From: Agelas oroides
Lineage: Eukaryota > Porifera > Demospongiae > Agelasida > Agelasidae
Length of the DNA: 64,000 bases
Assembly (NCBI GenBank): GCA_949130485.1
Contig: OX422184.1
Span: 9,898,996-9,962,995 of the forward strand
Direction of reading: 5' to 3'
In this document: piece by piece, positions 12,686-38,235 of the stretch
Numbering within the stretch: position 1 is the stretch's first letter
How the letters are laid out: each line of letters opens with the position of its first letter
The notes under the pieces: model-generated
The model's database searches: none
What the model saw: the letters and a program-made list of their open reading frames with translations, nothing else
Told to the model about the DNA's origin: nothing
Program-made: the position numbers and the translations under genes

Positions 12686-12943
12686 ACCCACTTGCTCACT
12701 TTGTACGGGAAAGTGTAAGTTAGTAAACGAAGATATTTGACCTTCACCTTCACAGGTATTGAAGTAGCACAGCCCACTGGGATTTCTAGAACCCATCAGA
12801 TTCATTTCTCTTTGCAGTTCTAACTTGTGTAGGCTAATAGACAGATCATCAACTTACACACTGTGTACATGTGATATGGGCTAGCTTACACATACCAGTT
12901 GTATTAGTTTAAACAGGCCTGCACGTGCTTCACAGCACATGAA
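12686..12943. other. Non-satellite insert in the array
   Basis: About 258 bp of unique sequence inside a minus-oriented block; satellite resumes at about 12944. I recognise no gene or terminal repeat in it. Confidence 0.6.
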
Positions 12944-13363
12944 CAAACTAAAAATCTTGATTTGGTTTTAGCATTCCCTTTCACCTCTACGTTCACGATC
13001 AACACTTAAATCAAGCAGGCCATACACATACTTGGGTGGCCAACATGCATGTACCTCCGATATTGGCATTTTGGTGCATAGTTTGATATTCGGTTAGCTT
13101 GATTTGGCTCATATTGTCACAAATCCATGAACAAACTCAAGATCTTGATTTGGTTATACACTCAAATCTAGAAGGCTATACACATACTTGGGTGGACAAC
13201 ATGCATGTACTTCCGACACTGGCATTTTGGTGCACAGTTTGATATTCGGTTAGCTTTATTTGGCTCATACAGTCACCAATCCATGAACAAACTCAAAATC
13301 TTGGTTTTAGCATTCCCTTCCACCTCTACGTTCATGATTAACACTCAAATCAAGCAGGCGATA

Positions 13364-13553
13364 CACAAGAAAAATTCAAGGTGTACAAACTGTCTTCCGT
13401 GTCGCCTGAATAAGTGTGTGAACACATCTAGTTCAAGCACAGATGATATAGATAATATACCAGAAACTCTGGGTGACTTTGAAAGCCCTGAAAGTGTATC
13501 TGAAATCTCTGATGGTGAAAGCGTCCTGCTCGATCCAACCAATCAACAGTTTC
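13364..13553 (+). other. Insert with coding character: Cys cluster plus acidic Ser-rich stretch
   Basis: This 190-bp insert interrupts a monomer. In the plus frame it reads RCTNCLPCRLNKC, followed by a serine and acid rich stretch including DDIDNIPETLGDFESPES. The C-x2-C-x2-C-x4-C spacing resembles part of a zinc-binding cluster such as CXXC or a transposon finger. The composition differs sharply from translated satellite. It looks like a captured exon or transposon scrap; no start, stop or splice sites are assigned. Confidence 0.4.
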
Positions 13554-14522
13554 CACATACTTCGGTGGCCAACATGCATGTACCTCCGATATTGGCATTT
13601 TGGTGCATAGTTTGATAGTCGGTTAGCTTTATTTGGCTCATATCGTCACCAATCCATGAACAAACTCAAAATCTTGGTTTTAGCATGTGACGATTTGAGC
13701 CAAATAAATCTAACCGAATATCAAACTATGCACCAAAATGCCAATATCGGAGGTACATGCATGTTGGCCACCCAAGTATGTGAATGGCCTGCTTGATTTT
13801 AGTGTTGATTGTGAACGTAGAGGTGAAAGGGAATGCTAAAATCTAACAAAAACCAAGATTTTTAGTTTGTTCATGGATTGGTGATGATATGACCCAAATA
13901 AAGCTAACCGAATATCATGAGCAAACTAAAAATCTTTGGTTTTAGCATTCCCTTGCTAACCGAGTATCAAACTATGCACCAAAAGCCCCTTCCACCTCTA
14001 CGTTCACGTCCAACACTCAAATCAAGCAGGCCATACACATACTTGGGTGGCCAACATGCATGTACCTCCGATATTGGCATTTTGGTGCATAGTTTGGATT
14101 GGTGACGGTATCAGCCAAATAAAACTAACAGAATATTGGCATTTTGGTTCATAGTTTGATATTTGGTTAGCTTTACTTGGCTTATACCGTCACCAATCCA
14201 TGAATAAACTCAAAATCTTGGTTTTAGCATACACTCAAATCAAGCAGGCTATACACAAACTTGAGTGGCCAACATGCATGTACCTCCAATATTGGCATTT
14301 TGGTGTCTCATACCGTCACCAATCCATGAACAAACACAAAATCTTGGTGTTAGCGTTCCCTTCCGCCTCTACGTTCATGATCAACACTCAAATCAAGCAG
14401 GCCATACACATACTTGGGTGGCCAACATGCATGTACCTCCGATATTGGCATTTTGGTGATATTCGGTTAGCTTTATTTGGCTCATTCATCACCAATCCAT
14501 GAACAAACTCAAAATGTTGGTT

Positions 14523-15229: not shown

Positions 15230-15650
15230 GACTCTCGTGGACATGACTCAGAAAACATTCACGACCCTTCTGACTCTTGTGGACATGACTCAGAATCTGA
15301 CGAAAACATTCACGACCCTTCTGACTCTTGTGGACATGACTCAGAACCTGACGAAAATATTCACGACCCTTCTGACTCTTGTGGACATGACTCAGACCCT
15401 GAGGAATACATCCACAACCCTTCTGACTCTTACGGACATGACTCAGATCCCGACTCAAACCCCGACTCACACCCCGACTCAAACCCCGACTCAGACCCCG
15501 ACTCAAACCCCGACTCAGACCCCGACTCAAACCCCGACTCAGACCCCGACTCAGACCCCGACTCAGACCCCGACTCAAACCCCGACTCAGACCCCGACTC
15601 AAACCCTGACTCTGACCCCAACCCAGACACTGACCCAGACCAATCCAGAA
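15230..15650 (+). repeat. Coding minisatellite (51-60 bp units, then 12-bp units)
   Basis: Proximal units begin CACGACCCTTCTGACTC and the distal array is a 12-bp unit, GACTCAAACCCC or GACTCAGACCCC. All units are multiples of three, so the acidic frame is kept; frames on both strands stay open as a by-product. The true frame is the one that splices on both sides. Confidence 0.85.
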
Positions 15651-16090
15651 ACAATCATGACCTTTCTGACTCCAACTCAGAGCCCCATGTGATAAGCAGA
15701 GGCAATGCAGGTACATGTCAAAATAATCAGGCAAACAAGGTTGCATGATTGGCTGTATGTATGCATTATAACTTTTTTCCATATATGGCAAAAACGTATA
15801 CAGGCTCCACTGCTGGACTACAAAGCCCTCTTATCACATGGGGCTCTGATGGTGCACCCCTAAGCACAGAGGAGAGTTTGTATGCAACATATCTGTATGC
15901 TATCAATAATAAGCTCTCGTATCAGGCAACAGTTCAGTTACTGGATTTGATGAGGGTACACTTTCCATCTCCTAACTTTTACCCACAAAGCTTCCACACC
16001 CTAAAAAAGCATGGGATGGTCACCGCCATTAGCAATGCATTTAATAGCCGCAACTGGGGTTACATTGTGGTGACAGTGTCACTCAAGGTT

Positions 16091-17168
16091 TTCCAGTCAT
16101 GGGGTCATAAAGGTTTTTCATGATTGTTGTAAGGGTGACACAGCAGTACAGAGTCCAAAAAAATAGAATTTTTATGACAAGGTCACAGGGTCATGATCAC
16201 TGATGATTTTGAGGTGCAGAGGGTCACAAGAGTCACAGCCAAATTTAGGCGATTGTAATTGTGTTTTTGGCTGTTAATAAGGGGCTAATTGGAGTGACCC
16301 CCCCCCCCCCCCCCTTCTATTATGACAGCATTTGACTATCCTGGCATCATTTAAAAAAATTATATTTCAAGGCTAACCACACCCCAAGTGGAAACAAAAT
16401 GGTGACTTCAACGAAAGTGACCTATAGTCACACAGGATTTCACAATGGAGCTGGATTGTGCACCTAGATCTGATTCCCTGTTTACAGTCACACACACACA
16501 CACACGACCTGATCAACTGGATTTGGTTCCTTGTTCCACAATTGCTCTATTGTAGCTAGGCTTCTACACTAGATCCTTAATAATTTGTAAATAAACAGAA
16601 CAAGCTGGTTTTTCCACTTGCATGGGTGGCAAATAATTTCGCCTCGTGTATTCACCGTTCTCAGCCTTAGCGCTTCAACCGTAGATACTTCAATGACAGC
16701 TGCTTCCACTGGGAGAGAAAGGAGGAAATAGCAGGCATGTGCAAGCACTCATATGGCTTGTTTCAACATTCATTCAATCATTCGCATATTCAATCATTAC
16801 TAAATTTTTTCTTTCCACTTGGGGTGCAATTTTTAATTGATGATTTTCTTCACATTAATACAGAAAAATGGCAACAGCTTCAATATCCTTTCACTAGGAA
16901 AGTTGTTCAGGATAGATTGCAGAGATTCACAGGCGTGGAAGTAGATCATAAGTTGACAAATCTCATTAGAAGCTCATGAAGGTTGTATAGAAAATAAAAG
17001 TGTTAAAATTTTCTTTCAGAAAATGAAATGGATTAGTATTAATCAGGATGTAGTTGGATGAAAAAATGATAAAATCTGCCCATACAATTCGAAGGAGAAG
17101 TTGGAGCAGATGGTGGAGTCCCACTGTGTTGGAAAAGTTGAACGCCATCTGAACACAAGATTAATCCT
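16091..17168. other. Decayed CACTA interior and simple repeats
   Basis: No convincing exon is visible. The stretch contains a run of 17 C at 16298-16314 and an (AC)n tract at about 16489-16505. It sits between the N-terminal and central CACTA coding regions, so it is probably intron or eroded coding sequence. Confidence 0.5.
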
Positions 17169-17186
17169 GTGTTCTCAGGAACTGCA

Positions 17187-18090
17187 ATGAATGTCATTCT
17201 TACTCCTGTCCTGGACAAGATTCGTGACTTGAGTATTTCTGGTATGCCAGTTCTTACACCAACTGGTCTGAAGACAGTTCGAGCACTCTTGCTAATGGCC
17301 GTGTTTGACCTACTTGCAAGAGCAGTTGCAACAAACTTCGTTCAGTTCAACGGCTATTACAGTTGCACATACTGCCTTGATGCAGGAGAACACACATCAC
17401 ACCGTCATGTGTTCCCCCTGAAGCAGACCATGAACCTCGCACAACATCCTCAATTGAACAGTGTGCAAGGGAAGCCATAGAAAGTGGCAATCCAGTGTAT
17501 GGGGTAAAGGGTAACTCAGTCCTCTCACCCTACATCAGCATTATTGACAAACTTACTCCACAACTCTACCCTGCCAAGATATGCACTGCTAATCTGCACA
17601 GCCTCATACACGTCTCCAGATTTGTACATAGTTGGGGACCATTGTGGTGTTACAGCTGCTTTGGTTTTGAAAGTATGAATGGCCACCCTTGATCTCTGTG
17701 CCACTTGAGCTTGTTGATATTGTACCTGCTAAAGATTGGATCAACTCTGCTTCTTTTGTGAACTCTATACAGCCCCTGCCTACTCTTCCAGTTTGTGAAC
17801 GAATTAGACACAATTCCACCCTTTACACAGCTGCCAAAGAGGGAAATCATAGAGCAAGAGATGGATCCATTTGTGTGTTTACGAACCACTTAACATTGCA
17901 TTTTGGATCAATTTCTCAGTTCTGCTTTTGCAATGGATTGTTAGTAGCTGTTATCAGAGAGTTTGAGCAACTTGACCAAACTATCTTTGATAACATCAGC
18001 CATCCTACCCACACAGAACTCAGTATCTCCTTATGTAATCCTATTACTGACTTTGTTTTTTGTGTCAAAAAAACTATCCCTGTATTTTAG
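17187..18090 (+). pseudogene. CACTA (En/Spm)-like transposase, central and C-terminal parts
   Basis: The first segment (17187-17415) includes MNVILTPVLDKIRD, then ARAVATNFVQFNGYYSCTYC, the usual order of a conserved block and a CxxC finger in CACTA transposases. The frame breaks within the C-run at about 17412-17416. It continues one frame over with GVKGNSVLS and NLHSLIHVSRFVHSWGPLW, then GFESMNG, which are hallmark CACTA motifs. A stop follows at about 17691, and a C-terminal segment continues to 18090. The neighbouring upstream exons are on the same strand. It is inactive as written because of the frameshift and stops. Confidence 0.8.
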
Positions 18091-20434: not shown

Positions 20435-20990
20435 TCAGAAGTGTAAGAGACTAACTACCCTTTCTAATGCAATATTTTCTGATTCCCGTCCAATTTTACT
20501 ACTGCTAATTCTTCTCTTTTGCATATACCCTGCAGCGGAAGCACTTGGTAGCTGGAGTGCATCAACGTCAATGGATGGTGCTAAGTGGCGAAGAACTGGT
20601 CTAATAATGTTCTGGATCTTGCTGGGAGGTATGCGTTGGGCAAGCAGAGCATAATATAATTCATGAATCGCTTGAGTGTATTTTCCAGCTACTTTGGTAG
20701 CTACAATTGGTATACTCTCTGTATCTGATTCTCCTAGAAGTTCCTGTATTTTGTCATACAACTCATCATTTTTGTGCTCTAGGACATTGACATAGGCTTG
20801 TAGGCTTTTAATCTGCTGGTCACAATTTCGGGTTAGGAGACGTAACCCGAAATTGTGCTCAGCTCCTGGTTTCTTGCTTGCTCATGGCATAATAATGCAA
20901 TTGTTTCTGTTAGTACAGCTTTCAGTTGCTCAGACTCTTTAGAAGCTTTTTGTCCGAGTTTTTGAATTTGATCGTTTGACCTTTGTTCAC
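20435..20990 (-). pseudogene. Coiled-coil transposon-like protein fragment
   Basis: Read on the minus strand, the N-terminal part is a coiled coil (QRSNDQIQKLGQKASKESEQ, later QQIKSLQAYVNVLEHKNDEL). It is followed by AIHELYYALLAQRIPPSKI and a segment rich in Pro and Leu. I recall similar proteins among repetitive uncharacterised genes of sponges and cnidarians, but I cannot name the family. The frame shifts across a perfect hairpin at 20821-20857. No start codon is assigned. Confidence 0.5.
20821..20857. repeat. Perfect 15-bp hairpin in a coding region
   Basis: CACAATTTCGGGTTA and its exact reverse complement are separated by seven bases. It lies at the frame break of the coiled-coil fragment, suggesting a templated inverted duplication disrupted the gene. 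Confidence 0.9.
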
Positions 20991-21858: not shown

Positions 21859-22152
21859 ACCATACAATGGATAACTGCCCATTGCAGCGTTCCTTGCCCC
21901 GTAAGCGCCCCTGGCCATTACCAGAGCCTAGAGGCACCTGCTAGTTCTCATCCGGTATACACAGTTATTGCCATTGACATATTTTGTACCAGCTGGTAAA
22001 AAAAATCCATTTTGGCTGTCTTTTAGTCTCGCGTAGGCACACCTAGCTTGGTGGTGCAGGGAGGGCCTTGCATAAGCGATAAAGGCTGTGTCTGCATGCA
22101 TCTCTTGGGAAAACTGACAGCACAGCTGCTTGTGGTTACCCAGCTGATTAAT

Positions 22153-23013
22153 ACCTCGTACACATCAGCCCCTTTGGGGTCATCCCAAAAAATAACAAAC
22201 CTGGCAAATGGCGGTTAATCCTCGATCTCTCCTCTCCAGAGGGCCACAGTGTAAACGATGGAATTTCCAAAGATCTTTGCAATTTGAGCTATGTTTCAAT
22301 TGATGACGCAATGGCAGGCATTCTTCAAGTGGGTCGTGGGGCCCTGATGGCAAAAATGGACATCAAACAAGCATATAGAAATATCCCAATATTCCCACAG
22401 GATAGACTTCTCTTGGGGGTGATGTGGAACAGAGATGTGTATGTTGATGAAGTTTTACCGTTTGGATTGCGGTCTGCCCCAATACTGTTCTCTGCAGTCG
22501 CAGATGTACTGCAACCAAGGTTGTTGCTGGCCCGTCATCCTTCTCTGGCTCTAAAGGCAGGCCAGCCTTCCCACAGACCTCAGACATGATGGCCTTTTTT
22601 TTTTGCACATTCTTCATTGTACGGAGCCCCTATTGTTAAAAGATCATCTAGGTAGTGTATGAGCGAAGAGACTCCTTCTTTTGCCATGATCCATCAAATT
22701 CCTGCAACGAAGACCTTGATCAAGTTGTGCACTGTGATTCTGGACACACTCACTGGCAGCAGGTTGAAGTCTCTGTTGTTGGTCTGGAGAGGGAAAAAGG
22801 CAGGGAAAAAGAGGGAGCTACTGTCCCTAATTGGGGTGTTGGGGCATGCAGCTAAGGCAGTGTGCTCTGGGAGAGCATTTGTCCGCAGACTCATTGACCT
22901 CTCAGCATCAGCGAACCAGTTAGACCATTTTATCCGCTTGAATGTGGACCCCCAGGTCGGACATCGAATGGTGGTACCAGTTTGTGGAGGCCGGGAATGG
23001 CGTCTCCATGATG
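22153..23013 (+). pseudogene. DIRS-like retrotransposon reverse transcriptase / RNase H region, internally inverted
   Basis: Plus-strand frame from 22153 reads SPFGVIPKNNKPGKWRLILD, then MAKMDIKQAYRNIPIFPQD and LPFGLRSAPILFSAVADVLQ, the fingers and palm of a DIRS-type RT. At about 22515 the sequence inverts. The minus strand of 22515-22700 encodes WIMAKEGVSSLIHYLDDLL, carrying the YLDD catalytic box, and then GLPLEPEKDDGPATTLV. The plus strand resumes with KKAGKKRELLSLIGVLGHAA and FVRRLIDLSASANQLDHFIR. In another frame RSDIEWWYQFVEAGNGVSMM follows, up to about 23013, where the LINE begins. It cannot be functional. Confidence 0.85.
22515..22700 (-). other. 186-bp inversion inside the DIRS RT
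   Basis: The YLDD-containing segment is on the minus strand while both flanks are on the plus strand. The breakpoints carry short inverted repeats: the complement of 22513-22530 reads CCAGCAACAACCTTGGTT, and 22701-22717 reads CCTGCAACGAAGACCTT. Confidence 0.85.
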
Positions 23014-23024
23014 GCTACTGTCAA

Positions 23025-23435
23025 CATACTCTTCACAGAGTCCATGGTATCAGGGAGAGATTGAGATTCCTTGATACCAAACATTACCAGGTTCTCACGC
23101 CGGTCAGGAAGAGCGCTAGAGAGCCTGGGCCTGGTAGGAGGTTTGAAAGAAGAACCTGGGGGAGGAGATACGTCGTTGCCAGAGGCAGTGGCATTGGAAT
23201 AAGAAGGAAGGCCAGCAAGACAAGACTCAACGTTGCCCATTTTAGAAGAAAAATTAGAGATCTCTATGCTTAGAGAATCAAGTTTACACTCAATGGCCTC
23301 CAGGACAGAGCTATTACGCTGAACCAATTCAGTGCAGGGGTCAGCAACAAGAGGAGGAAGCAATACCAGATCAACAGCTTCACAAACGATCTCTGGTAGC
23401 TTGTCGATTTGATGTAACTGTGACATGAGGATGCA
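23025..23435 (-). pseudogene. LINE ORF1 N-terminal part (5' inverted segment)
   Basis: On the minus strand a protein starting at 23426 (MSQLHQIDKLPEIVCEAVDL) contains a short coiled coil and a Pro/Ser-rich linker. It ends with RRENLVMFGIKESQSLPDTM and SMLTVA near 23027. The natural continuation, MEFLTGRPTPVKDMFHIGRF, lies on the plus strand from about 23441. Head inversion like this is the expected product of twin priming during LINE insertion. Confidence 0.8.
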
Positions 23436-23737
23436 AACGGTTGGAGTTTTTGACTGGAAGGCCTACTCCAGTGAAGGATATGTTTCACATTGGTAGATTT
23501 AAGAAGCCTGGAGGTGATGAGCCCACCACCTCACATCCTAGACCCATTCTGCTGAAGCTGGCTTCACCCTGGGATCGTCGTCTTGTTCTTGCGAATCGCT
23601 CTAATCTAAAACACTACAGTGTGAAAGGTATTTTTGTTCGTGAAGATCTGTCTCCTGAGGCTCGCCAACAGCGTAGAGAAAATTTGGCCGCCCGTCGTAG
23701 ATGTTTGTCTGATTCAGGAACATTGGCTTCTTCATGA
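23436..23737 (+). pseudogene. LINE ORF1 C-terminal part
   Basis: This reads FLTGRPTPVKDMFHIGRFKK, then PRPILLKLASPWDRRLVLAN and VREDLSPEARQQRRENLAAR. It resembles the RNA-binding part of LINE ORF1 proteins: a basic segment after an IGRF motif. It is the continuation of the inverted upstream piece. Confidence 0.7.
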
Positions 23738-24095
23738 GCAGCTCAGTCTTCTCAATGTTAACAATGACTTCCTTTCATCTGGGGTGAGTGGAATGGATAG
23801 CTCTGACCTCCTTCTCGGCCGGCCTTTTGGTGGCTGTGCCATCCTCTTCAGAAGATCTCTTCTCCCTTTTGTTTCTTGTCTTGACTCCGTCTCCAAACGG
23901 TTTTGTTCAGTTTTGTTGCGTGATCAGTGTGGCACCACAACCCTCCTGATCTGTGTTTACCTCCCCCACAATGATGGTTCCTCTGCATCTCATAATGAAT
24001 ATCTAATTACCCTGGGTGAGCTCGAGGGTTTTATTGTCATACTTCTGATCACATTCTTATTGTTTTTAACGTTGATTTTTGTCGCACTAGCATGA
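23690..24095 (+). pseudogene. LINE AP-endonuclease domain (partial)
   Basis: The frame contains VCLIQEHWLLHEQL (the QE.W motif of APE endonucleases), GRPFGGCAILFRRSL and TTLLICVYLPHND. It loses the frame before the catalytic GDFN and SDH motifs, around 24,030-24,120, so the endonuclease is inactive. Confidence 0.8.
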
Positions 24096-24372
24096 CCTTA
24101 CAACATCTCCGTAACTTTATGACTGCTCTCTTCAAGTTGATCTCTCTGTAACCCCTCCCTCCTCTGTTCCTACTCAATCCACAAAAACACGTATTGCCTG
24201 GCATGCAGCTGATTCTGACCTCATTAGGTCCTATTGTGATTTAGTTTCTTATTATCTTCCGTCACTTCCTAATTCTATTTGTGACTGTTGTGATCCTCAG
24301 TGTACAGTACACACTCCTGTTCTAGATTGGTTTTGTGAACAACTATCATTGTGCCTTCATCATTGTGCAGTG

Positions 24373-26261
24373 TCAACCATGCCCACAGTGCGTCACTCTT
24401 CCTCTGTTCCAGGTTGGAATACTGCTGCCCGTTTGTACAAGGAGAAGGTTAACTTTTGGCATGCTGTTTGGAAGCAGGCTGGATCTCCTTCCTCTGGTGT
24501 TCTTCATCAGATCAAAAAGTCCTCCAGATCGCGATATAAGTAGGAAGTGAGACGCCTGAGGCGCCGTAAAGAGTTCATTAGGCGTGAGAAAATGGCTGCT
24601 GCTCTTGCCTCCTCCAACTCCAAAAGCTTTTGGCACCAAGTTCACCGTGTTAATAAGTCAAATAAGCCTACTCCTGCCTCTTCTGTTGACGGTGTCTCTG
24701 GTTCTAATCACATTTCTCAGCTGTTTTCCTCCAAGCTTGAAAGACTCTTGAATTCTCAGCCATCCACTGGGTGTGATTCACTTCACCCCTCTCTTCTATC
24801 CTCTCTGCTGACAACCTCAAATCTGTTTCTATCTTGGAAGAGCGCGTAGTTGATGCCTTTTCCCATCTTAAACGTGGCAAATCTGACGGTTCTACACTTA
24901 TGTCAGACCACCTTATCCATGCTCTACCAGCCATCTGCTCATCATTAGCTTCTTTGTTCACTGCCATTCTTAGACATGGTTATATGCCTAAGCCAATTAG
25001 GGACTGTACCATTGTACCCATACCTAAAGGTAATAAAGATCCCAGTTCATCTGACAACTATCGTCCCATTGCCCTTGCTCCAACTCTGAGGAAAGCTCTT
25101 GAGTGGTGCATTCTTCTTTCTTATCCCGATCATTTTCTAACCTCGGGTCTTCAGTTTGGCTTTAAGCAGAAAATGTCAACTTCTCTTTGCACTGGCACTA
25201 TCAAGAATATTGCATCTTGTTACTTGCACGAAAATTCTGCTGTCTTTGCCTGCTTCCTTGATGCCTCTAAAGCATTTGATCTTGTGAATCACAAGATACT
25301 CTTTGAAAGATTATTTGACTGGAAGCTCCCCGCTTATCTTATTCGCTTCTTTTTATCATGGTACAAGGAGCAGCGCATGTGTGTAAGATGGGGGAACTCT
25401 TTCTCTGATAGTTTTCCTGTCTCAAATGGTGTCAGACAAGGTGGTGTACTTTCTCTGATTCTTTTTACCATCTACATTGATGACCTCTTAGGTGACCTAA
25501 GCAAGCTTGGTGTTGGGTGTCACTGGGACTCTCTTTTTGCAGGTGCTGTATGCTATGCAGATGATTTGGTTCTTCTGGCACCCTCTCCATCAGCCCTAAG
25601 GATCATGCTGAACTGTTGTGAGAATTTTGCTACCATTCGCGGCCTTAAGTTTAATCCATCTAAGACACAGTTGATACGTTTCTCCTCTTTCCCCTCTTCC
25701 TCTTGTTCTGCTTGCTTCTATTTTTGTGGTCAGCAACTTCCTTTTCTTGACACTGTCTCACATCTTGGTCATCTTCTTCATCACAATCTCAGTGATGTCC
25801 AAGATATTAACTTCAAATTGCGTGACATGGTCAGGAAGGCTAATTGTCTATTTGCAACCTTTCCAAGAGTTAGTCCGTATATTTTGACTCGTTTATTTCA
25901 GTCCTACTGCCTTTCTCTTTATGGCTGTTGTCTATGGTCACTCTCATCCCCTGCTCTACAAAATATTGAAGTTGCCTTTAATAAGATTCTTCGCAGAATT
26001 TGGAGTCTCTCCCCTCGTAGTCATTCTCGTATTGTTCATTTAGTTGCTAATCTTCACAGCCTCTTCAATGTCATCTATCGCCGTTCTAAATCTCTCCTTT
26101 TTGCTGCCACCCAGTGCCCTTCTCTAGTTGTTCGTACTGTCTTTCGTGATTCCTCTCTCTACTGTTTCTCTTTCCATGGGTATAATACCATGTTTGGCAG
26201 TCGTCACATCAAGCATTATTACGCTGAAGATATCATTTGTGCTGCAGTGATCAGTTGCTGA
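24373..26261 (+). pseudogene. LINE reverse transcriptase
   Basis: The linker region runs from about 24373 with an in-frame TAG at 24541 and another stop at about 24847; the RT frame continues to 26261. RT motifs in order are IVPIPKGNKDPSSSDNYRPI, FACFLDASKAFDLVNHKILF, GVRQGGVLS and CYADDLVLLAPS (YADD active site). The C-terminal part resembles the thumb region of CR1/L2-type enzymes. The RT domain itself is unbroken over about 470 residues, but upstream stops and the 5' inversion make the copy inactive. Confidence 0.9.
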
Positions 26262-26404
26262 CTCCAACTCTGATTCTGAACAGATTATCCGTACCATTTC
26301 CTGTGACTAGTAGCTAAATAATGTTATTTATGTATTTTTTTACTACTCCTAATATGGTGTGTTGTATATATAATAATAATAATAATAATAATATCAACTA
26401 GGTT

Positions 26405-26662
26405 TCGTTTTTCGATGTTGCAGTACATCATATTCCAGGGGTTAGCAACCAAGTGGCAGACGCTGTTTCCAGGGACAAGTCATCTTTGTTCGACATCTCC
26501 CACAGGCAAATCCAGCACCCACTCCCATCCCCCCCCCCCCCCCCCCCCACTGCTGGATCTTCTGATTATACAGAAACCAGATTGGACATCAAGGGCCTGG
26601 ACGACCTTGTGGAACACTATTTGCAACATGGTTCGGTTAGAGCAGGTACTGAGAGGGGTTAA
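26405..26662 (+). pseudogene. DIRS-like element resumes: RNase H end and recombinase start
   Basis: The frame gives FDVAVHHIPGVSNQVADAVS, the conserved HIPG..N..AD-SR end of the DIRS RNase H domain. A run of about 20 C (near 26529-26549) then shifts the frame. In the next frame PDWTSRAWTTLW resembles the start of the tyrosine recombinase domain. It ends at about 26690. Confidence 0.75.
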
Positions 26663-26699
26663 GTTTCATGTTTCAATATCGTAAGCTTCTCACAAGGCC

Positions 26700-27150
26700 A
26701 CGGTTGTGTCAGGCATCCGGGGTGCTTTATCTAGATCAGCCACATCTGCTGTTACATTATAATTGCGGACTAGAAATCAGCAGAAACAGTCAAGGCTATA
26801 AGTAGCTACTGGGAAAATCAGCACTGTTTCAAAGTGCTGTTAGGTTACAATAGCCATGCATTGAATGGCTTTAAACAAGTACAAATAGCTTACCTAGCAG
26901 TGTTCTGCTCCTTGAATAAATTAGTATCTACACAAATCAGGCCAACAGCTACGCCCAGGGCTTGCTAAGCAACACTTAACAACACTGAAGTGTTATTGAA
27001 AGCTGTTCAGTGATACAACCTCTAAGTTATTTGAAGGCAGTACTTCTGCTGTAAGTGAAAACTGGAGGCTGTTTGCAAGAAAGTTCGCGTTTGGGAACCG
27101 TTGTCAAAATTCACGGTCCTTCACCCTATAGTACCGCCCCTTTCTGTCTT
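26700..27150. repeat. Intergenic; contains an interspersed repeat copy (27020-27112)
   Basis: The block with GTGAAAACTGGAGGCTGTTT recurs in the same orientation at about 54787-54890 with roughly similar flanks. No gene is seen in the rest. Confidence 0.6.
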
Positions 27151-27179
27151 TTCAGAGTAGTGATGTACTATTCAATAGG

Positions 27180-28130
27180 CAGGGATTTACCCCGCAGTTT
27201 TTTTTGGCTATGTAAATAGACATACACGCACATATACACAGGATATCATGGTCTTTCCTCATGTGGTATCTTACAACATCAGCTTGATATTGGGAAAAAT
27301 AATTATAAAAGCGTGGTTCAACAGTTGGCATACAGGTGGATTCTCGTAAATCCCACACTGACTTGAGGCATTCAAAATGCTCATCAAATTCGCTGAGGCT
27401 GGCACTGTCGACGAGACCAGCATAGAAAGTATTGCCAACACGCTTTCCAAAAATATCAGCTATGAACTCGGAGGTGACAGATGCTGCAAATCCATACTCT
27501 TTCAGCTTCTCTTGCACATTTCTTTTGAAATGAATGAAACATCTCAGAGATGTAAAAACTGGAATGTCACCGTTCATGCTTGGACCTGTTCTAATCCACC
27601 AGAGGGTTGATTTCACTGCTTTCAACTACTTTGCAAGTACCCTTGTTTGGATGCAGACGAGAACTCAGGAAGATCTTGTCGTTTGGAAGTGATGGGGACA
27701 AAGCACTAGTAGAAGCATTTACCCACAACTTTCCAAATGCTATTCAGTTGCAGCATCAAGTGGGGATATGTCAGTGGGGTGACATAAAAGTCTCCAAGGT
27801 TGTAGGTAGTATCAGCTGTAAGTACACCAAAGCGGTGATTGTCAGGAAGCGAACCATGTCATCCAACTGCCACTCAGAGGACAGAATGCACATTGGTTGG
27901 GGAGCAGCTTTGACATCTTGGACAAAAATCTGTGACGTACCTTGTGCTAGTTTGCATTCAAGCATGATACTGTATAAAGGATTGTTATCCTTTACCTGCT
28001 GATGCTGACGGGCATATTTCACTTGTCGGCGATCACGTGGAAGACTTGCTGCTCCATGGGCTTTAAGTTCTCCACCTTGCTCTTTGGTTAGAATATGAAT
28101 GGCTCGAAATTTCTCCAGTCCCCAGTCCAA
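27180..28130 (-). pseudogene. MULE-like transposase pseudogene with internal inversion
   Basis: Minus-strand order: from 28130 the part with GAASLPRDRRQVKYARQ and CILSSEWQLDDMVRFL, then in another frame ADTTYNLGDFYVTPLTYPHL (up to about 27751). After 27545 come RCFIHFKRNVQEKL, SEFIADIFGKRVGNTFYAGL and NYFSQYQADVVRYHMRKD. These are motifs of a MULE-type transposase family common in sponges and cnidarians. The segment expected between them, MLGPVLIHQRVDFTAFNYFA and FGSDGDKALVEAFTHNFPNA, is present but on the plus strand (27546-27750), itself with a one-base shift. The C-terminal half after MRKD is lost. Confidence 0.85.
27546..27750 (+). other. 205-bp inversion inside the MULE-like gene
   Basis: Coding sense switches from minus to plus and back. 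One breakpoint lies in the palindrome CATCTCAGAGATG (27540-27552); the other is at CAGTTGCAGCATC (27745-27757). Confidence 0.85.
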
Positions 28131-28216
28131 ATCTCACATTTCTCCAGTGCAAATCTCATATTTCTCCAGTGCAAATCTCACATTTCTCCAGTGCAAATCT
28201 CACATTTCTCCAGTGT
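28108..28216 (+). repeat. 22-bp minisatellite, copy 1 (about 4 units)
   Basis: The unit is AAATCTCACATTTCTCCAGT plus GC. It begins at the end of the MULE-like pseudogene and is followed by the block AAAATCCCGCCTTCCATATC that is shared with copy 2. Confidence 0.95.
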
Positions 28217-28249
28217 AAAATCCCGCCTTCCATATCCCCGCGCGTTGAT

Positions 28250-28272
28250 CTAATGCGCATGCTCATGAACTT
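28250..28272 (+). promoter_or_regulatory. Conserved CCAAT/NRF1-like block, copy 1
   Basis: CTAATGCGCATGCTCATGAA here matches CCAATGCGCATGCTCACGGA at 29121. The core ATGCGCATGC resembles an NRF1 site. It lies 35 bp after the minisatellite. Confidence 0.55.
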
Positions 28273-28998
28273 CATTTCGAGCAAGTGGCTGGAATTAGTG
28301 CTTGCAGAGATAGAGTTCTTGCAATAGAAGTGCTAGCGTTGGTTGTGTCGAGATGCAGAGTTGTGCACATGCAAGCTGACACGTCCGGCCGATCTGAAGA
28401 CAAATAAAGTGAGTGCTTCACCGAGGTAAATTACTGTGGCTGTATGAAATGTTTTGCAGTCTCAATTTCATGAATTTCGTTCACCAAATCATGAACAGAC
28501 AGCTTAATAGCTTGTCTAGATGTTTGCTGCAAACTCTTTCAGTACTTACAGTAGTATGATGCTCACATGCACAGTCCACGGCTGCATGGATTCAGTCGTG
28601 ACTGAGTTTATGGGAAGCTTCTGGAGCCTCTGATTCTGCTGCATGGCCTTCCTTCCTGCCTCCTTAAAATTGTTAGAGCCAGTGGAGCTAGTAAAATCCA
28701 GTTCATTATGCCTTGCAGCATAAGCATGAGCACCATGCCAGTGTGGCTAGAGTTTAGATGTAGTCATAATCAAACCGCTAAGGCAGCTATATGTTGAAGC
28801 AATGAGACTGAAAAAACGTTACAATCACAATTGCCAGTGACTGATTTACCTCAGTGAAACCTTTACCTTGCTTTCATCGTCTTCAGATCCAGACATGTCA
28901 CCTTATGCACAACTCTACAACTCAACATGCCAGCACTAGCACTATACTGCAACATGCAACTCTATCTCTGCAAGCAGTAGCTCCAGACATTTGCCTGT
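28268..28998. repeat. Inverted duplication of a gene 5' region (arms 28268-28430 and 28835-28998)
   Basis: The left arm in plus and the right arm in minus orientation share GCTTGCAGAGATAGAGTT, AGAGTTGTGCA, GATCTGAAGAC and TTCACYGAGGTAAAT in order. They differ at many positions, so the duplication is old. The right arm contains a plausible first exon on the minus strand; in the left arm its ATG has become ACG. Confidence 0.75.
28867..28896 (-). CDS. Possible first coding exon of a minus-strand gene
   Basis: ATG at 28896 begins MSGSEDDESK, followed exactly by a GTAAAG donor (28866-28861). Its layout parallels the first exon of the plus-strand kinase gene, which also encodes a short Ser/acidic peptide ending at a GTAAAG donor. 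The remaining exons cannot be identified; the nearby MULE-like pseudogene lies downstream on the same strand. Confidence 0.35.
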
Positions 28999-29030
28999 TG
29001 GGGTCATTCTCACTTCAAATTTCCAAATCC

Positions 29031-29088
29031 ATTTCTCCAGCGCAAATTTTACATTTCTCCAGTGCAAATCTCACATTTCTCCAGTGCA
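29031..29088 (+). repeat. 22-bp minisatellite, copy 2 (about 2.5 units)
   Basis: Same unit and orientation as copy 1, between the minus-strand first exon at 28.9 kb and the kinase gene. It is followed by the same AAAATCCCGCCTTCCATATC block. Confidence 0.9.
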
Positions 29089-29120
29089 AAATCCCGCCTT
29101 CCATATCCCGCGTTTACAGT

Positions 29121-29143
29121 CCAATGCGCATGCTCACGGACTT
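29121..29143 (+). promoter_or_regulatory. Conserved CCAAT/NRF1-like block upstream of the kinase gene
   Basis: CCAATGCGCATGCTCACGGA followed by CTT, about 110 bp before the kinase start codon. It combines a CCAAT box with an ATGCGCATGC palindrome. Related blocks follow the other two minisatellite copies. Confidence 0.55.
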
Positions 29144-29254
29144 GCTGCATGTGTGGTGTGTATGATCAAGTCCTTCGTCAACCTGAAGACTGCTGTATAA
29201 AGCGCTTGCGGTGGTGCTCGCTGTAACGTAGCTCTAGTCTTGCAGCGGTCGTGC

Positions 29255-32200
29255 ATGTCTGAACACAGAATGTCAAGCTCCGAAGAAGAAAACGAGGCGA
29301 AGAGATCGCCAAGCAAGGACCAAGGTAAAGTATCTACAATATCTGTCACATATTGCGACGAATTCCTGGTGCATAATTTGCGTACATGTGCTTTTAGTGC
29401 TGGCAATGTATCAAGAGATGGCAAGGAAACAGAGGGCAAAACTACAGCTGAAGAAGGGTAAAAGCAAACCGCCAAAAGCAGACGCAAAACCTCTTTCTGC
29501 TGATGACTCTCTCGACCAATTGGTGGTTGGTTTTTGTAGCTGCATCATGGAAATTCACAATCGGGTGGGGTAGGTAGTCTCGTGCCCAGCCCATATGGTG
29601 TGGTGAACAGGACCAGTAGGATGAGATTGTTAATTATTAAACGAGGACTTTCTTATTAGAATAAAATTTTGCCTCTCTGCTCAGGCATCTAAACATTTGA
29701 GTGGGTGTGGTGCCAATTTCTTTGACGTTGCTAGGTTACACTAGTCACAAAAGCGCACGCCAGCCAAAGAAATTTCGACATTGTTCACCACACCATTTTT
29801 CCTTGTGAGAGGGTGGGATCTGGGAATGAGACTTGGGGGGGGGAGGGAAGACTTGAACTGGCAAAAATCATGTGGTGTATTATAAAAGCAGGATGCATAC
29901 TTACTGCCAAATCACAAGTAGCTGTGTCCAACTGCATGTGCCAAACCTAAGCTAAATTATAAGGATTGTTTTACAAAATTGAAATGGGATAGCATTTGAC
30001 TGAAGTGTGCAGTGATTCATTGAAGAAAGAGGGATGTATGATTTGCCTTTTTCTTTGACATGTAGGTGACTGTTGGAAGGATGGTGTACTCCAACAAGAA
30101 GGGTAGAGGCGTTGTGGACAAAGAGTTTGGAGCAAGAAAAATATTCATCCACAAGCATGCTTCGTATGATCGCTTTTTACAGCGAGTAAAGAAGGAAGTC
30201 TTTAAAGATGGGCCAGAGAGTGCTAGTTATTATATTGCAGATGGGTGTGGGGTTGCAATCACAGGTGGGGAGAACATCACTGTTGAGGATGCAGGTGGGA
30301 AGGAACAAACACTTCAGTGGACGCTGGACACCTTTCTGAAAATGTCTAACATTCGGTATCAGTCAAGAGCCCAATTCTTCTGTGTGCAAAAGACTTCAGC
30401 AGGTTTGCATTAACATGGCTTTATTTGGTCTTGTGTGGTTTTCTTGAAACAAGCACTTTCCTGTGAAGGTTCTGACATTTTTACATTCACTTGCTTTTAG
30501 TTGATGAGTACAGTGATATGGAGGGCGAGGCAGGAATGCAAGTGGATGATGCTCAGAAAGACAAGGAGATCGCTAAGGTGTCCACAAAGAACAAGAAAGC
30601 AGAGAAGGAGAAGAAGAGAGAGGCAACTGTTGAGATCACAACCACTAAGAAGGAGGCTTCTGAAAAGGGCAAAGTAAGTGGGTTTTTTTGGACCAATAAG
30701 GTAACAGCTCAGGGAGCAAACCTTATCAACTTTTGACCTCCAATGATGCGTATTTATATAGTAATGCATGGGCATGGACATTGATATTGCTTTCCCCTGA
30801 TGATGACCGATGCCATTTAGTTTAAATGTCGGAGTAACTTTTCCGATCTAAATTTGGTGAAAAGAACTTCCTTTTCCATTTGTGTATAGGAGCTGGTTGA
30901 GGAGCCAGCTGCTCAGTCACTTGCGCCCACCCATGAAGAAGTCATAGAGATAGATGGGTTAGTATGTCACGAAAGCATGGAAACTGAGACTGGGAGTTAC
31001 AGTGAAGGCAGGAAAGAAGACAAAATAGGATTTGCAGGTGAGTCTGTCATATAGAGAGAAAATTCAATGGGGTTTCTATCCGCTTGAGAGTACTAGTTAT
31101 GTAGGCGTTGTGGTCCTTGTAAATACCCATTATAGGTATTGTACTGCTTCACCAATTCAGATGAGTTTCAGCCACTCTTTCTGAAAGTGAAGCGGAGTGC
31201 CTATTGTGAGCGCTACTCCTTTATGACAGGGCTGACACAAGAGACCGTGCTGGGGTTCCACGTAGATGACCCGGAAATTGTGCATGATGTGCAGGATGAC
31301 ATGGTGAGAGATCCCTCGCCAGGAGGGCCGCATCACGCATTGTGTGCGTTGCTTATATTGGTGGTAGACTTGTTGCTGGCAGATCAGGTGATGTGTGAAT
31401 GATGTTACATGTGTGAATGAGGTTGGCTATACTGTCATCACCTGCATCAAAGGTATTACACCATTTGCGCTGTCTTTGGATCTTGAAGCAGTGTCATTTA
31501 CAAAGCTTCAGGCACTCAGAAGTGCAAAGATCCGCCCTGAAAATCCATGTCATTTTGGGTTTCACCTCTGGGGGATCCGTGAGGGAGGTAGGTAATGTTG
31601 TTTTTCAGTAAATTTTGATTCTGTCTCGTCATTACACAACCAGTGGAACGTAGCCAAGTCAAGGCAATGTTGATGTTAATGCATCAATTCTCACTATTAT
31701 AGATGAAACCAAAATTCTGGTAGCTGATTTGGATGTACAAACTGGTCACGTGCTTTTGAAGCAACCTGATCATGGTAAGTGCATATTCATGTAGTAGTAT
31801 GCAGTTCCAGTCTTCCTGCATGAAGTAACAAATCATGTGTTTGTTTTATACATAGATGCGCAGTTCTCCCTTTGGACAGCTGGTTTTGCCAGAGATGGTG
31901 TTGGTGTGCTGGCTTGCATTGCTTTGAACGGGTTTCATGCCACATCACAGTATCAGTGGTTACGGAATGATTATGAAATGGAAGACGAGACCTATGCAGT
32001 TCTGTACACCTCTACCTGTGGCGAATACAAGTGCAGAGTGACGGTGGATGAAGATAATCAGGCTACTGCATGCATTTCACAGGATTCTAACAGTTATTCC
32101 CTAATCCAAACACATACTGCATCTGATTGGCTAATTCAAAAACTAAATGTATAATGACTTGTTCTACAGGAGAGCAGAGTGTTCAGAGAGTGAGGATCAT

Positions 32201-34250
32201 TGATAGCGTTCAAGCACAGACTGTCAAACAACAAGGTTGGCAACACAGTGTATCTTTCCACAGTTACAGTCAGTTATACTGCAAATTTCTTGCGGTTATT
32301 TTTGTAGATCAAAGTTGCCCCAAGGACCTCACTGAACTAATGGAGCTTTGTGCTGACCAAGCAGAAGGTATATCTCTTGTATTTTGTGATATGATACATT
32401 TAAATCTGCATCTCTTCGCTAGATGTTCACAAAATTAAACTCTTGAATGTCATTGGACAAGGAAGTTTTGGAACCGTTTACAAAGCATTTTGGAGGGGGA
32501 CAATTGTGGCTGCAAAAGTGATCCCCATGCCTGCTACCACTCATGAGAGAGCTCAAAGAGAGATTGATATGTGCAGGTATGTAGTTAAGCAATGTATAGC
32601 ATCCACATGAAATCATTAAATAATGTAAGGCACCTCATTTCTTTTTACTTCACTCTGCAGGACCATGCAGCACCCAAACATTCTGACAGTATTGGGGGCT
32701 GTAGTTACAGAAACATCCATTACAGTCCTGACAAATCTCGTCAGGGGTTTCAACCTACATACCCTTATTTTTGACCATGGATGTGATAGGGTAGGCAAGT
32801 AACAGTAATTGAATGGTTGGCTGCCAAGTTTTTTTTGGGGGTAATTGTAGCCCATTGCGTGGGCAGATCAAAGGCGCCGGCAGGGTAATATATGTCACAT
32901 TGCCCTGTGGTGAGGGCAGTATATAGATATTGCCCTGTGGTTTGTAATCATTGTTGTACAGTAATTGCATTCAAAATAGGTGCCTATTTAAACCAGAAGT
33001 GCATATGATGAAATGCGCCATAACTATACTGTTACTTGCATAAATGTGACATAATGTCTACTTTATTTATTTACAGATGCCTTTTGCCACAAAAGTAAGA
33101 CTAGCTGTGCAGGTTTTACAGGCCATGATATATCTGCACAGCTCTCAGCCACCTATGGTCCATTTGGACATAAAGCTAGCCAACATTCTGGTACGTAATG
33201 TTCATTGTGATGACATATACCGTAATTTTGGCCACACTGTGTATATATGCAATGATCATGAGATTGGCGGACAGTGGGTGGAACCTTGGAGAGTGTGTAA
33301 TTTTTTTATACGAGTACCACAAGTATTAGTTAAATCACCCTCACGAGGGATGTTGCTGGTTTATAAGCCCGACACCCAAGGGTGCATAGCGCCTGAGGGG
33401 GATAGCTTATAAACCGTGACATCCCGAGTGGGAGGGTGATTTAACAGATTTATAGTTCGTTTTGGGGGATGACTAAACTGCATGTTTGTTGTGTTCTACA
33501 TGTACCTTTTCTTGGCAGATATAGTCACAGTTCACACCTGATATAGCTGAATCAGCTCTTCCATTGGCATGTTGACCATTTATAAGTCTTCTATAATCTT
33601 AGCAACCACCTAGCAACAGGCTATAATTAATGTTTTAGGGGTTCAAGCAAAGGGGAGTTATGTGTGTAGACCTAAATGTTATCCATTTAGCCTTTTTCTT
33701 GATTGAGGAATAAAGATTCATCATCCTATACGTGTATATTAACATATACCTTTAGCAAAAGCCTCTTTAGTCATCAAATGGGAGGAATTTTCTGCATTAG
33801 TTGCTGAGAGTTGCCATACTCAATTCCCAGCTGGTTATTACTCCCTATTCCATCATTTAGGTTGAAGATGCAACTATGCATGCCTATCTTGCTGATTTTG
33901 GGTTAGCAAAGATGTTAACCAGCACTGGAAGTGTGGGAAGCAAGAGTGGCCAATCGGGAACACCAGGGTTCCAGTCACCAGAACAGCTAAAGGCTGGCAA
34001 AATAGATGTTCTTTCAGACGTCTATTCATTTGGCTGTGTTCTTATTGAGTTGTTTGGAGAGAAGCAAGTGTGGGGGGGACTTAGCCACTTCCAGATAATG
34101 TACAAGGTTGGTGTTGAACTCCAAACCCCAGAACATCATCACCTTCCTCCAAATATCCAGAAGATATGTGCTTCGTGCCTTGCAGAACATGACCATCGCT
34201 CCACGGCAAAGCAGGTGCTAAAAGCATTGCTGCAGTCTTTCGGGGTGTGA
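29255..34250 (+). CDS. TKL-like protein kinase with Ig-like domain, 15 exons
   Basis: Exons: 29255-29324, 29398-29522, 30066-30402, 30501-30673, 30890-31037, 31161-31303, 31422-31587, 31703-31774, 31856-32092, 32170-32235, 32308-32367, 32423-32576, 32661-32790, 33077-33190, 33861-34250. All phases match and give about 794 residues. The start is the first ATG of a short acidic exon. Residues about 66-177 form an unfamiliar domain (GRGVVDKEFGARKIFIHKHA), then a Lys/Glu-rich linker. An Ig-like fold follows at about 415-485 (YQWLRNDYE, GEYKCRV). The kinase spans about 533-790: GQGSFGTVY loop, VAAK lysine, REID glutamate, HLDIKLAN catalytic loop, DFG, SPE and SDVYSFGCVL. The HRD arginine is leucine (a non-RD kinase); all other catalytic residues are present. 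No signal peptide or membrane segment is evident. The exon 9 donor and exon 6 end are the least certain. Confidence 0.85.
33331..33443. repeat. Small foldback repeat in the last kinase intron
   Basis: Arms of about 38-40 bp begin TAAATCACCCTC and end GAGGGTGATTTA, both adjoining TTATAAGC/GCTTATAA. The core contains CACCCAAGGGTGC. It is probably a tiny MITE inside intron 14. Confidence 0.8.
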
Positions 34251-34509
34251 GAGTTTTCGCATAGTCTGAAAAGTGGACAATTGCCCTGGAAGTGCTCTCT
34301 CCTCGGATCCATCATCGTCAGTTTTCAGCTTAACTATATTAGTCACATAGTTATTTTTTCATCTAATCCTTCAGCAGCATTTTTCAGCTTACATTGTTAG
34401 AGTCACATGGTTTCAAAAATTGAGTACTTGTAAAAAGTTCTCATTTGATCATTTTTCAGACAGAAATTTTCTATTAATTCATGACCATGCAGTTTAAACA
34501 TACAATGAC

Positions 34510-37500
34510 TCAAACATCTTCCAAAGCATCTATTAATGATACATAGAATATGACTGCCTCCCTCACACTGTGGGGCATGTGGAGACCATGCTCCTCCATT
34601 AGTAGCTCTACTAACTCCAAGAATTCTAAGGAAGCAGGAGGGCTAGGAGGAGAGGTGAACTGTTCAACATACATCATGTCTGTTGGATCCACATGACAGC
34701 TGTGATTGACAGCACCTGTCACAAGACACCAGATAGAGTGGAGGATGGAAACTGGCATGCACAATATACTTCATATGCCAAGGAAAACATTTAATTTAAG
34801 AACTTTGCCACATGCAGGATAATGCAGTATCTTTCTAGTAATAAGTTTAGTACCATTTACCTCTGTTGAGTTCATGGTGCACTTGCACAGCAATGCTACC
34901 ATAATTGCTCTGTACACACTCCTTTGCTCTATTTACCTACCCCCTTCACCTCATGGTACTAGTTTTGCACTCTCAATACAGATTTTCAATCACTCAGGGT
35001 GAAGTTGTATAAGTAATCAGCACATACCTCCAAGTTCAGGCATGAAGAATAACTCATCAGGTATGCCTGGAACAGAAACACTGTAGTGGTTAGGCCTTAT
35101 CTTGTGGGTGTTCCATTCTCTAACACAAAGACAAACTGACACTTTGATTCATAAGTTGTTAGGAAGACAGGAATAAATGTTGAGGTGAATAAATTTGAGG
35201 CAAATTTCATTCACGTATATAGCGACAGTCATGTAGTGTCTACTCAACTGCTGTTATCATCATGGAAGTACGACTAAGCTTAATCTTGAGGTCAAAGTAT
35301 GCAGTTATGCTTACGTATGAACAGGATTTGTATCGTCAAACAATGCTTCATACTTCAATCCCTGTTGCAATCAAGATAGTAATGTAAAGCTTGGTGGAAG
35401 GGAAGCAGCATTGTCATCACTCATTATGACACACAGTGCTGTACCAACAGCAACATTCCAACAAAATGTAGAAATGTAGCACAGTTGCATGCATAAATTT
35501 TAATCACCTCAAAGAAATTCAGCCACCAATCTGTATTCCACCTGCGAAATTGGCTCCACCATGCTTCAATTCTCTAAATAAAATAGTCCTATATGGCAAT
35601 ACGATTATCAACACAACAAATATAAGTAATTACACATACCTGGTTAGATACAGATTTTCCATATCGAAAGCTTTTGTCTTGGAGGGGACCACTTCTTCGG
35701 AGAAAAGGCTGTATGTATGCAAGTCTGCTGTTTTCTGTCCCCAGATCACAGCGTAGCAATTTTGGGGCACCTATAATGTATATTATGTTATCTTCAGTCC
35801 AATGTAATTATTATTATGGTAGACTTTACCTTTCAAGTGCTTAACTGCCCTTAGGTAGTAACCAGCCACAACTCTGGGGTCATTGTTAGATGTCCCAACT
35901 TCCAACCATACGATCCTTCTTGAGTAGCTATATGTAAAAGATTACTAACTCATCACAAGACATTTTCGTGTAATGACTGTAATCAATATTATACACTACG
36001 CTTACCCATCTATACATCCATGTATAGCAAATCCATATGGTTTCAACTTATCATATCCATCACAATGCCACACTTCATTTGGTCCCTGATAAAGTAATGT
36101 TACAACATGGTAGTAGAAACTTTAGCTAATATTTGCACTGGAAAGCTTACTTTTACATGATACAATCGTCTTTTCAGTTTCCTTTTCCTTCTCATTGCAA
36201 CATCATCTGGGTCAACACACGAAAGCACAACCCTAACAGTGTCCCTGCAGTTCATTGGCGAAATATCAGGCATATGTGACTATTACTAAATATAGCTAGT
36301 ATAGTTAGTATAGTATCACACGTGATCGATTCATAGAAAATTTTAGCTATTTTCTGCACGTGAAATAGGGTAAATCAACAATCAGATTGCTCAAAGGCCA
36401 TCTAGAGTAAGTTAGCAATTATCGGACGACAGGTATATTCGGACACTCAAACGCGGAGGGAAAACTGCGTAAACATTCGGCGATACCACAAGACTGTAGC
36501 TGAGGTACGTGGTACCTTGTGTACCAAAAATGACGCCCGCGCATTGTTTCCTGTTGGCGCTAGAAGCGATAAAATGGCCGTCCGAAAAACATCAATATTC
36601 GGAAAAGTGTATGTATTTTCAGACACTGTTGTTTGTGCCTTCTCTGAAGCTGCTTTTGGAGAGATTTTAGCATCGATACGATGCCCCAAGACCTCCCCAA
36701 TTCGCAATATATTTTGGTAGCGGTAGCTACTTTGAACACTCAGGGGCGCAGCTGAACATGGACCAGTCCGATTCGATCGATATCGGACGGTGAAATTTGT
36801 CATTTCTTGCTGTGTTGTCTCCAAACAAGTTGAAGTCTCCACCATATTAGCATCAGTAGAATCTACAGGCTCTTGGCTACATGCTGGTACTTGTCCGGAG
36901 TTTGTGCGTTAAGTAGTTCTCGAGATATAAATATATTTCATGTTTCTTTCCATAAACTACGCTGGTTGATTTATGTGCAGCATAAATAGGTGAGTTCAAA
37001 CGATATCGTGCAATATCTCGAGAACTACTCAACGCACAAACACCGGACAAATACCAGCATGTAGCCAAGAGCCTGTAGATTCTACTGATGCTAATATGGT
37101 GGAGACTTCTACTTGTTTGGAGACAACACTACAAGAAATGACAAATTTCACCGTCCGATATCGATCGAATCGGACTGGTCCATGTTCAGCTGCGCCCCTG
37201 AGTGTTCAAAGCAGCTACCGCTACCAAAATATATTGCGAATTGGGGAGGTCTTGGGGCATCGTATCGATGCTAAAATCTCTCCAAAAGCAGCTTCAGAGA
37301 AGGCACAAACAACAGTGTCTGAAAATACATACACTTTTCCGAATATTGATGTTTTTCGGACGGCCATTTTATCGCTTCTAGCGCCAACAGGAAACAATGC
37401 GCGGGCGTCATTTTTTGGTACACAAGGTACCACATACCTCAGCTACAGTCTTGTGGTATCGCCGAATGTTTACGCAGTTTTCCCTCCGCGTTTGAGTGTC

Positions 37501-38161: not shown

Positions 38162-38204
38162 TCTCAGAACTTGATACAGGCACTTGATGGTACAGTACAA
38201 CTAT

Positions 38205-38235
38205 AAGTCCGCGTGCATGCGCTGATGCCCATTGG
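38205..38235 (-). promoter_or_regulatory. Conserved CCAAT/GCATGC block upstream of the integrase-core gene
   Basis: On the minus strand this reads CCAATGGGCATC, then AGCGCATGCACGCGGACTT. It parallels the block after minisatellite copies 1 and 2 and lies about 45-75 bp before the start codon at 38161. Confidence 0.5.

Follow-up and report, generated by a model that had tools for sequence, protein, structure and literature searches.

Recurrent short in-place inversions inside decayed mobile elements of the sponge Agelas oroides, with sizes suggestive of one nucleosome repeat

Background

In a 64,000-nucleotide stretch of the genome of the sponge Agelas oroides (GenBank assembly GCA_949130485.1, contig OX422184.1), referred to throughout as the window, decayed mobile elements of the DIRS, LINE and MULE-like types carry internal segments in inverted sense, and several described systems bear on how such segments might arise. 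Twin priming, the model of Ostertag and Kazazian for 5' inversion of LINE inserts, is cited in a study of human L1 that reports such inversion in 18.4% of germline and 21.9% of somatic insertions (PMC12016303). Microinversions between human and chimpanzee are reported to be 17-33 nt long and all flanked by inverted repeats (PMC8755829), and short-range template switches in great apes to reach at most 128 nt, with a median of 12 (PMC7954356). Yeast rad27 mutants are reported to acquire inverted triplications whose inverted part has a median of 160 bp, with breakpoints near nucleosome dyads and Okazaki termini; the same report finds simple inversions more frequent in the absence of Rad27 and associates FEN1 mutations with small inverted triplications in cancer genomes (PMC13334657). 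This last report is also the nearest to the present case that we found, as no nucleosome-sized in-place inversion fixed in a genome turned up among the titles and abstract openings listed by searches of open-licence papers on microinversions, nucleosome-sized changes and Okazaki fragments (for one of them, 20 of 325 entries).

The window corresponds to C2:9898996-9962995 in our contig numbering and belongs to a 259-Mb draft assembly of 141 contigs. Flips were compared by means of whole-genome searches with pieces of the window and of the loci retrieved from them; several of these searches, such as those seeding 45520-45699, 54241-54418 and a 1.7-kb element, aligned only the best 40 candidates. 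The search floor for inverted pieces was ~40 bp, and the copies compared were often picked because they hold an event.

Results

Inverted segments in three elements

An earlier note on this DNA had claimed that three elements within 5 kb each contain a flipped internal segment. This holds against other copies in the same genome, in which the segment has the opposite sense: four copies of the LINE, four of the MULE-like gene and, at the protein level, relatives of the DIRS element. In the MULE-like gene fragment (27290-28104, minus strand), a 203-bp segment (27548-27750) lies on the plus strand. Blocks 27290-27547, 27548-27750 and 27748-28104 match four other loci contiguously, at ~94, 94.6-96.6 and 81-84% identity, with the middle block inverted relative to all four; flanks are collinear on both sides and the overlap at the breakpoints is 0-3 bp. 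Because all four relatives lie ~49-58 kb from a contig end, they may represent a single subtelomeric lineage and not four independent witnesses. The MULE-like label itself rests on a below-cut-off domain match (16.5 bits against a cut-off of 27.6, E 0.012) in one reading-frame piece of a relative. The neighbourhood of the gene (27290-28104 and about 38411-40990) recurs ~44-58 kb from contig ends on C5, C3, C21, C2 and C11, a pattern resembling subtelomeric duplication.

The DIRS-type reverse transcriptase (RT) starts in forward sense (22152-22511, plus strand; RVT_1, E 2.3e-07), collinear with other DIRS copies, and ends in ...LPFGLRSAPILFSAVADVLQ. There follows an inverted segment of about 175-185 bp carrying the YLDD box (about 22512-22696, minus strand), after which the forward sense resumes in the RT end or connection region (22740-23021, plus strand, with an approximate start set by comparison with other DIRS copies). 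Since DNA identity to relatives is just 66-69% over the longer matches, this element was compared by translation. The copy at C12:3.55 Mb keeps the RT reading order intact, as ...APLIFTALAEALL-WIMRQRG...YIDDF...EPEKDEGPATT-ISFLGIELDT..., and, measured against it, the YLDD part of the window (~22515-22696) is turned to the minus strand, with forward sense before and after it. Among 25 DIRS loci compared by translated search (tblastx), 21 matched the segment in the opposite sense; four pairs of loci overlap, which leaves 17 of 21 places. The left breakpoint shows an imperfect palindrome, CAACC-AA-GGTTG, and a 10-of-11 direct repeat flanks the flip.

The third element is a LINE inserted in the DIRS element. 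Its forward block (23440-26400, plus strand), identified by domain matches (RT and, weakly, endonuclease) and by other copies, is preceded by a 392-bp inverted block of the ORF1 region (23022-23413, minus strand), about 92-93% identical to four copies with the block in the other sense. In those copies (4/4) the two blocks follow one another collinearly and without a gap, sharing 4 bp where they meet; in the window they are opposed, with 26 nt of filler (23414-23439) separating them. No second copy of this filler was found, allowing up to 5 mismatches, in the window and seven loci. No clear target-site duplication, a usual though not invariable mark of twin priming, was seen by eye, and ~300 bp of DIRS sequence is missing at the insertion site. 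Twin priming, which the earlier note had proposed for this case, fits: the insert starts at its 5' end with the inverted block, which abuts DIRS sequence, and the two complementary-DNA ends lie close together in element coordinates (the 4-bp overlap in 4/4 copies). This likeness is limited to 23022-23439. The note set the other two flips apart from twin priming; the DIRS and MULE-like elements both resume on either side of the inverted segment, which makes these flips DNA-level rearrangements.

Further inverted segments

Comparable segments occur elsewhere in the window. Genome search and alignment identify a 180-bp in-place inversion at 45520-45699 relative to C2:10645192-10645372, with matching DNA on both sides. 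Matching DNA also flanks four others, with extra or missing DNA alongside: 54241-54418 (178 bp; C2:12031401-12031579, with ~526 bp extra on one side there), 48674-48758 (85 bp; C9:5689824-5689908, with 165 and 90 bp extra beside it there), 17682-17750 (69 bp; the locus at C1:23.817 Mb has 121 and 43 bp more alongside) and 16558-16623, a 66-bp fragment that is inverted at C2:8.174 Mb and is the sole remnant there of 955 bp of the window. Alignment of the same or adjoining loci adds a 186-bp inversion at 46069-46254 (C2:10.645-Mb locus; matched on one side only, the right flank no longer aligning), a 60-bp inverted piece at 17132-17191 (C1:23.816 Mb; one flank only), a 55-bp inverted fragment at 47211-47265 and a 211-bp piece at 49725-49935 that is both inverted and displaced (both at the C9 locus), and the block 15608-15959, inverted at C2:8.174 Mb as fragments of 116 and 49 bp with 187 bp gone between them.

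Flips are also found between loci outside the window: 191 bp (C16 versus C17), 190 bp (two C17 loci), and 155/179 and 163 bp (C2:8.444 versus C2:11.03 Mb). The C17 flip, at 99.5% identity, is close to the 5' end of a LINE copy and has just 29 matching bases past it; it is the derived state, because C9, C1 and C5 share the right-hand join seen in the C16 order. A LINE copy at C18:2584500-2588200 (L076) is more thoroughly shuffled, with pieces of ~1194 and ~245 bp inverted, one of ~197 bp displaced but forward, and joins that overlap by 8-13 bp; with little lost, it looks like a miniature of local shattering and re-joining. At C13:3895400-3897400 (L081), a copy of the 1.7-kb element has had ~40 bp replaced by a perfect fold-back duplication of 80 bp (about 685-844; loop of 5 nt), which is plainly a template switch. 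Two candidates were dropped: this C13 event, since its alignment is that of a fold-back duplication and not of a flip, and a 151-bp 'inversion' for which direct alignment scored far higher.

In-place inversion of short segments has thus occurred again and again in decayed mobile elements of different families, in support of a recurrent microinversion process. The earlier note went further and proposed a genome-wide process. Recurrence is upheld by the additional segments in the window and between other loci; genome-wide extent is not shown, as no in-place flip was present among the scored copies of the 1.7-kb element (best 40 candidates) and none is listed for another element whose 327 bp leave little room for one.

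Breakpoints

For 11 events, the longest inverted repeat linking 12-bp zones at the two breakpoints was compared with a background of 3000 random intervals of the window. Such repeats measure 3-5 bp in 11/11; four of the 11 reach 5 bp, compared with at least 5 bp in 30% of random intervals. Palindromes of at least 6 bp occur at 5/22 breakpoints, against 20% at random. The inverted repeats or palindromes that had been claimed for the breakpoints are therefore no commoner than chance, though the DIRS left breakpoint does have its imperfect palindrome. Given these 11 events, hairpin or inverted-repeat mediation is discarded as a general cause of the in-place flips, and the template switching or hairpin-mediated repair put forward earlier finds no support for them, the fold-back on C13 being the one clear case elsewhere. 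Three flips are nearly lossless; the small overlap of the MULE-like case is matched by 2 bp at 45520-45699 and 1 bp in the C2:8.444/11.03 Mb pair. Joins are not all alike, however, because the DIRS flip has its direct repeat and the C18 joins their longer overlaps.

Deletions and a segmental duplicate

Deletions of similar size accompany the flips. LINE copies show losses of 175, 187, 184 and 254 bp, with several copies keeping the long state. Two of these are in the window copy itself, at 23699-23701 (175 bp; long state in 5 other copies) and 24123-24129 (187 bp, with a 7-bp repeat at the join; long state in 8 other copies). Single retrieved copies lack 70 bp (an older LINE copy), 178 bp (the 1.7-kb element) and 118 bp (another element), relative to a long state in the window or a region designated L089 and in the other listed copies, and a 586-bp deletion comes from the comparison table of the 1.7-kb element search. 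Polarity is clear for the 175-, 184- and 187-bp LINE deletions and for the 178-bp deletion in the 1.7-kb element.

A near-identical segmental duplicate of window 28100-38420 (97-100% by block) lies at C2:19.300-19.312 Mb. Over 30.4-35.7 kb, it differs from the window by 18 mismatches in 5,070 aligned bases, by non-tandem indels of 199, 166 and 69 bp, and by a 44-bp tandem-repeat change. The 199 bp are present at 31328-31526 and absent at C2:19.305 Mb, whereas the 166 bp are extra at C2:19.306 Mb relative to 32060-32061; neither join has a repeat.

Size distribution

The pooled sizes comprise 21 inverted or displaced fragments and 12 deletions, all of at least 49 bp, compiled by hand from our tables. 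Deletions were counted at their true length difference, with the join repeat included. Indels of 370, 472 and 611 bp and 5.4 kb were left out as insertion-like, with short repeats at the join; so were the 44-bp tandem-repeat change, differences of 808, 827 and 1135 bp (repeat arrays or a long inverted repeat), a 26-bp piece and the 392-bp LINE block (twin priming). A C18 deletion call of ~243 bp is the 245-bp displaced piece and was entered once. Ambiguous indels of 205 and 211 bp (C1:11.61 Mb) and of 381, 382 and 623 bp were kept to a separate test line.

The interval of 155-210 bp, which is the textbook nucleosome repeat, contains 17/33 of all events and 17/22 of those within 86-300 bp; 2 events fall in 86-154 bp. 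With sizes taken as uniform, the binomial p for 17/22 is 7.5e-07; the least favourable density that falls from 86 bp gives 6.7e-05. Widening the frame to 40-300 bp gives 17/31 (p 4.9e-05, or 0.0022 with a falling density from 40 bp), and when each of the 20 loci is limited to a single fragment, the median is 12/15 in range (p 1.9e-05). Of the sizes within 86-300 bp, the range takes in 7/9 when deletions are counted alone and 10/13 when inversions are. A size rule near one nucleosome repeat is suggestive but unproved. The inversions at 45520-45699 and 46069-46254 are about two units apart, as a standing nucleosome array would give, although this weak lattice has a chance probability of ~10%.

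Satellite and other repeats

Positions 1-14522 are a satellite with a unit of 183-187 bp, in which repeat analysis counts 25 orientation changes, the roughly 25 switches reported before; its 29 runs include some of merely 30-37 bp. Several of the inverted units span exactly one monomer. At some switches inverted arms enclose a core of ~12 bp, and many junctions fall in phases 142-182 of the 183-bp unit. A long inverted repeat (36404-37000 and 37014-37540) has arms of ~530 bp (98%) and a 13-bp spacer and belongs to a high-copy family, with 1516 first-look candidates and most of the best 40 as members. A perfect hairpin, cacaatttcgggtta/taacccgaaattgtg, with a 7-nt loop occupies 20821-20857.

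Discussion

We lean, at somewhat less than an even chance, towards repeated breaks or replication errors that each affect a unit the size of one nucleosome or Okazaki fragment and leave it flipped or lost. The edges of such a unit, about one nucleosome repeat long (155-210 bp), would be the sites of breakage or mis-copying, yielding flips in place together with many deletions. One route would be a pair of breaks in neighbouring linkers, followed by end joining with the piece turned round or lost; another would be an error of lagging-strand synthesis in which a single Okazaki fragment, of matching size, is skipped or has its reverse complement put in its place. Neither route would need inverted repeats at the breakpoints. 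The bolder form of this proposal, that inherited rearrangement is quantised by chromatin, with one nucleosome (or Okazaki fragment) unit lost or reinserted inverted without sequence homology, is advanced more tentatively, as a possibility short of a preference.

The same data could come from ordinary, unrelated accidents, namely twin priming in the LINE plus occasional two-break end-joining inversions in old neutral relics, with the size cluster owed to chance and to selection of examples; we consider this somewhat doubtful, though a serious contender. Several points tell against the nucleosome-unit proposal or for such accidents. The window was chosen for its flips, the list of events was made by hand, and the 155-210 bp range, prompted by the first events, and the 86-300 bp frame were both set after events had been seen. 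Events tallied after the idea had been recorded give 9/13 within 86-300 bp (p 0.0014, or 0.014 with a falling density), some of them being in earlier outputs. Fragments from one locus are not independent, and fragments of 49-85, 116, 211, 245 and 1194 bp and deletions of 69, 70, 118, 254 and 586 bp do not fit a single unit. Inversions alone cluster weakly once the small ones are included (for those of at least 40 bp, a falling density gives p 0.038, which rises to 0.068 once the displaced C18 piece is left out). A pre-set test of two further 9.5-kb regions (L089 and L090) says little: no clean inversion with flanks is among the matches listed, but high-copy short elements filled the 39-40 scored places; one region was swamped by the 327-bp element and the other by an element with its own inverted repeats. 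To this are added the lack of a flip among the 40 scored candidates of the 1.7-kb element and the age of the DIRS copy, given its low identity to relatives. Reverse transcription could have made the 191-bp flip near the LINE 5' end, and some indels could be insertions of short elements, of which a ~190-bp high-copy example exists in the window. Accidents do not readily explain, on the other hand, why 17 of the 22 events between 86 and 300 bp fall in one narrow range with only 2 just below it, and both the C17 flip and the indels of the segmental duplicate are recent, as their near-identity indicates.

A replicative template switch, whether at short inverted repeats or through fold-back priming, is improbable as the source of the flips. 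The C13 fold-back, the satellite switches with a short core between inverted arms and the overlaps at the C18 joins all speak for it. However, the precise flips are replacements by their own reverse complement with almost no gain or loss, the 11 tested events lack inverted repeats above background, and the flips exceed the sizes reported in apes, both the 17-33 nt of microinversions (PMC8755829) and the 128-nt maximum of template switches (PMC7954356). It is very improbable that each flipped piece is a small mobile element in its own right, which re-inserted or turned over where it lay: the ~190-bp element and the direct repeat around the DIRS flip would suit such an origin, but the MULE-like, DIRS and LINE flips consist of coding sequence, 45520-45699 and 54241-54418 have one other copy each among the best 40 candidates, and inverted repeats near the ends do not exceed 5 bp in the 11 events. 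Assembly error, raised earlier as a systematic problem, is equally hard to credit. The genome is a draft in 141 contigs, but the flips are short, with several of them placed to within a few bases, and they differ in age and element family and are spread over several contigs; for the DIRS, MULE-like and LINE flips the coding sense bears out the polarity, and the C17 flip is shown to be derived by the join shared with C9, C1 and C5.

Should the size rule be true genome-wide, the nucleosome (or Okazaki fragment) would be a unit of inherited rearrangement that can be read from one assembly. The case would then serve as a natural system for lagging-strand or linker breakage, so far known from mutants and tumours, and would reveal a source of in-place inversions, which routine indel calling can mistake for divergence.

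Compared with known systems, the LINE insert resembles twin priming in that its inverted 5' block joins the forward block with a short overlap (4 bp) in element coordinates, and departs from the textbook form in its 26-nt filler, its lack of a clear target-site duplication and the ~300 bp of target that are gone. Ape template switching has its counterpart in the C13 fold-back hairpin, whereas the precise flips are approximately length-neutral and longer than 128 nt. Like the human-chimpanzee microinversions, the flips are segments replaced in place by their reverse complement; unlike them, they are often 155-210 bp long and show no excess of inverted repeats (11 events), bearing in mind that the events counted are of at least 49 bp and that the search floor was ~40 bp. 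The small inverted triplications of rad27 and FEN1 mutants share with the present set a size of about one nucleosome or Okazaki fragment, which applies to 10/21 of the inverted fragments here (155-210 bp; one is displaced, not inverted). They differ from it in that the flips described here are in place, without spacers or flanking direct duplications of ~148 bp, and in that the triplications are seen in mutant cells, whereas these flips are fixed in a genome.

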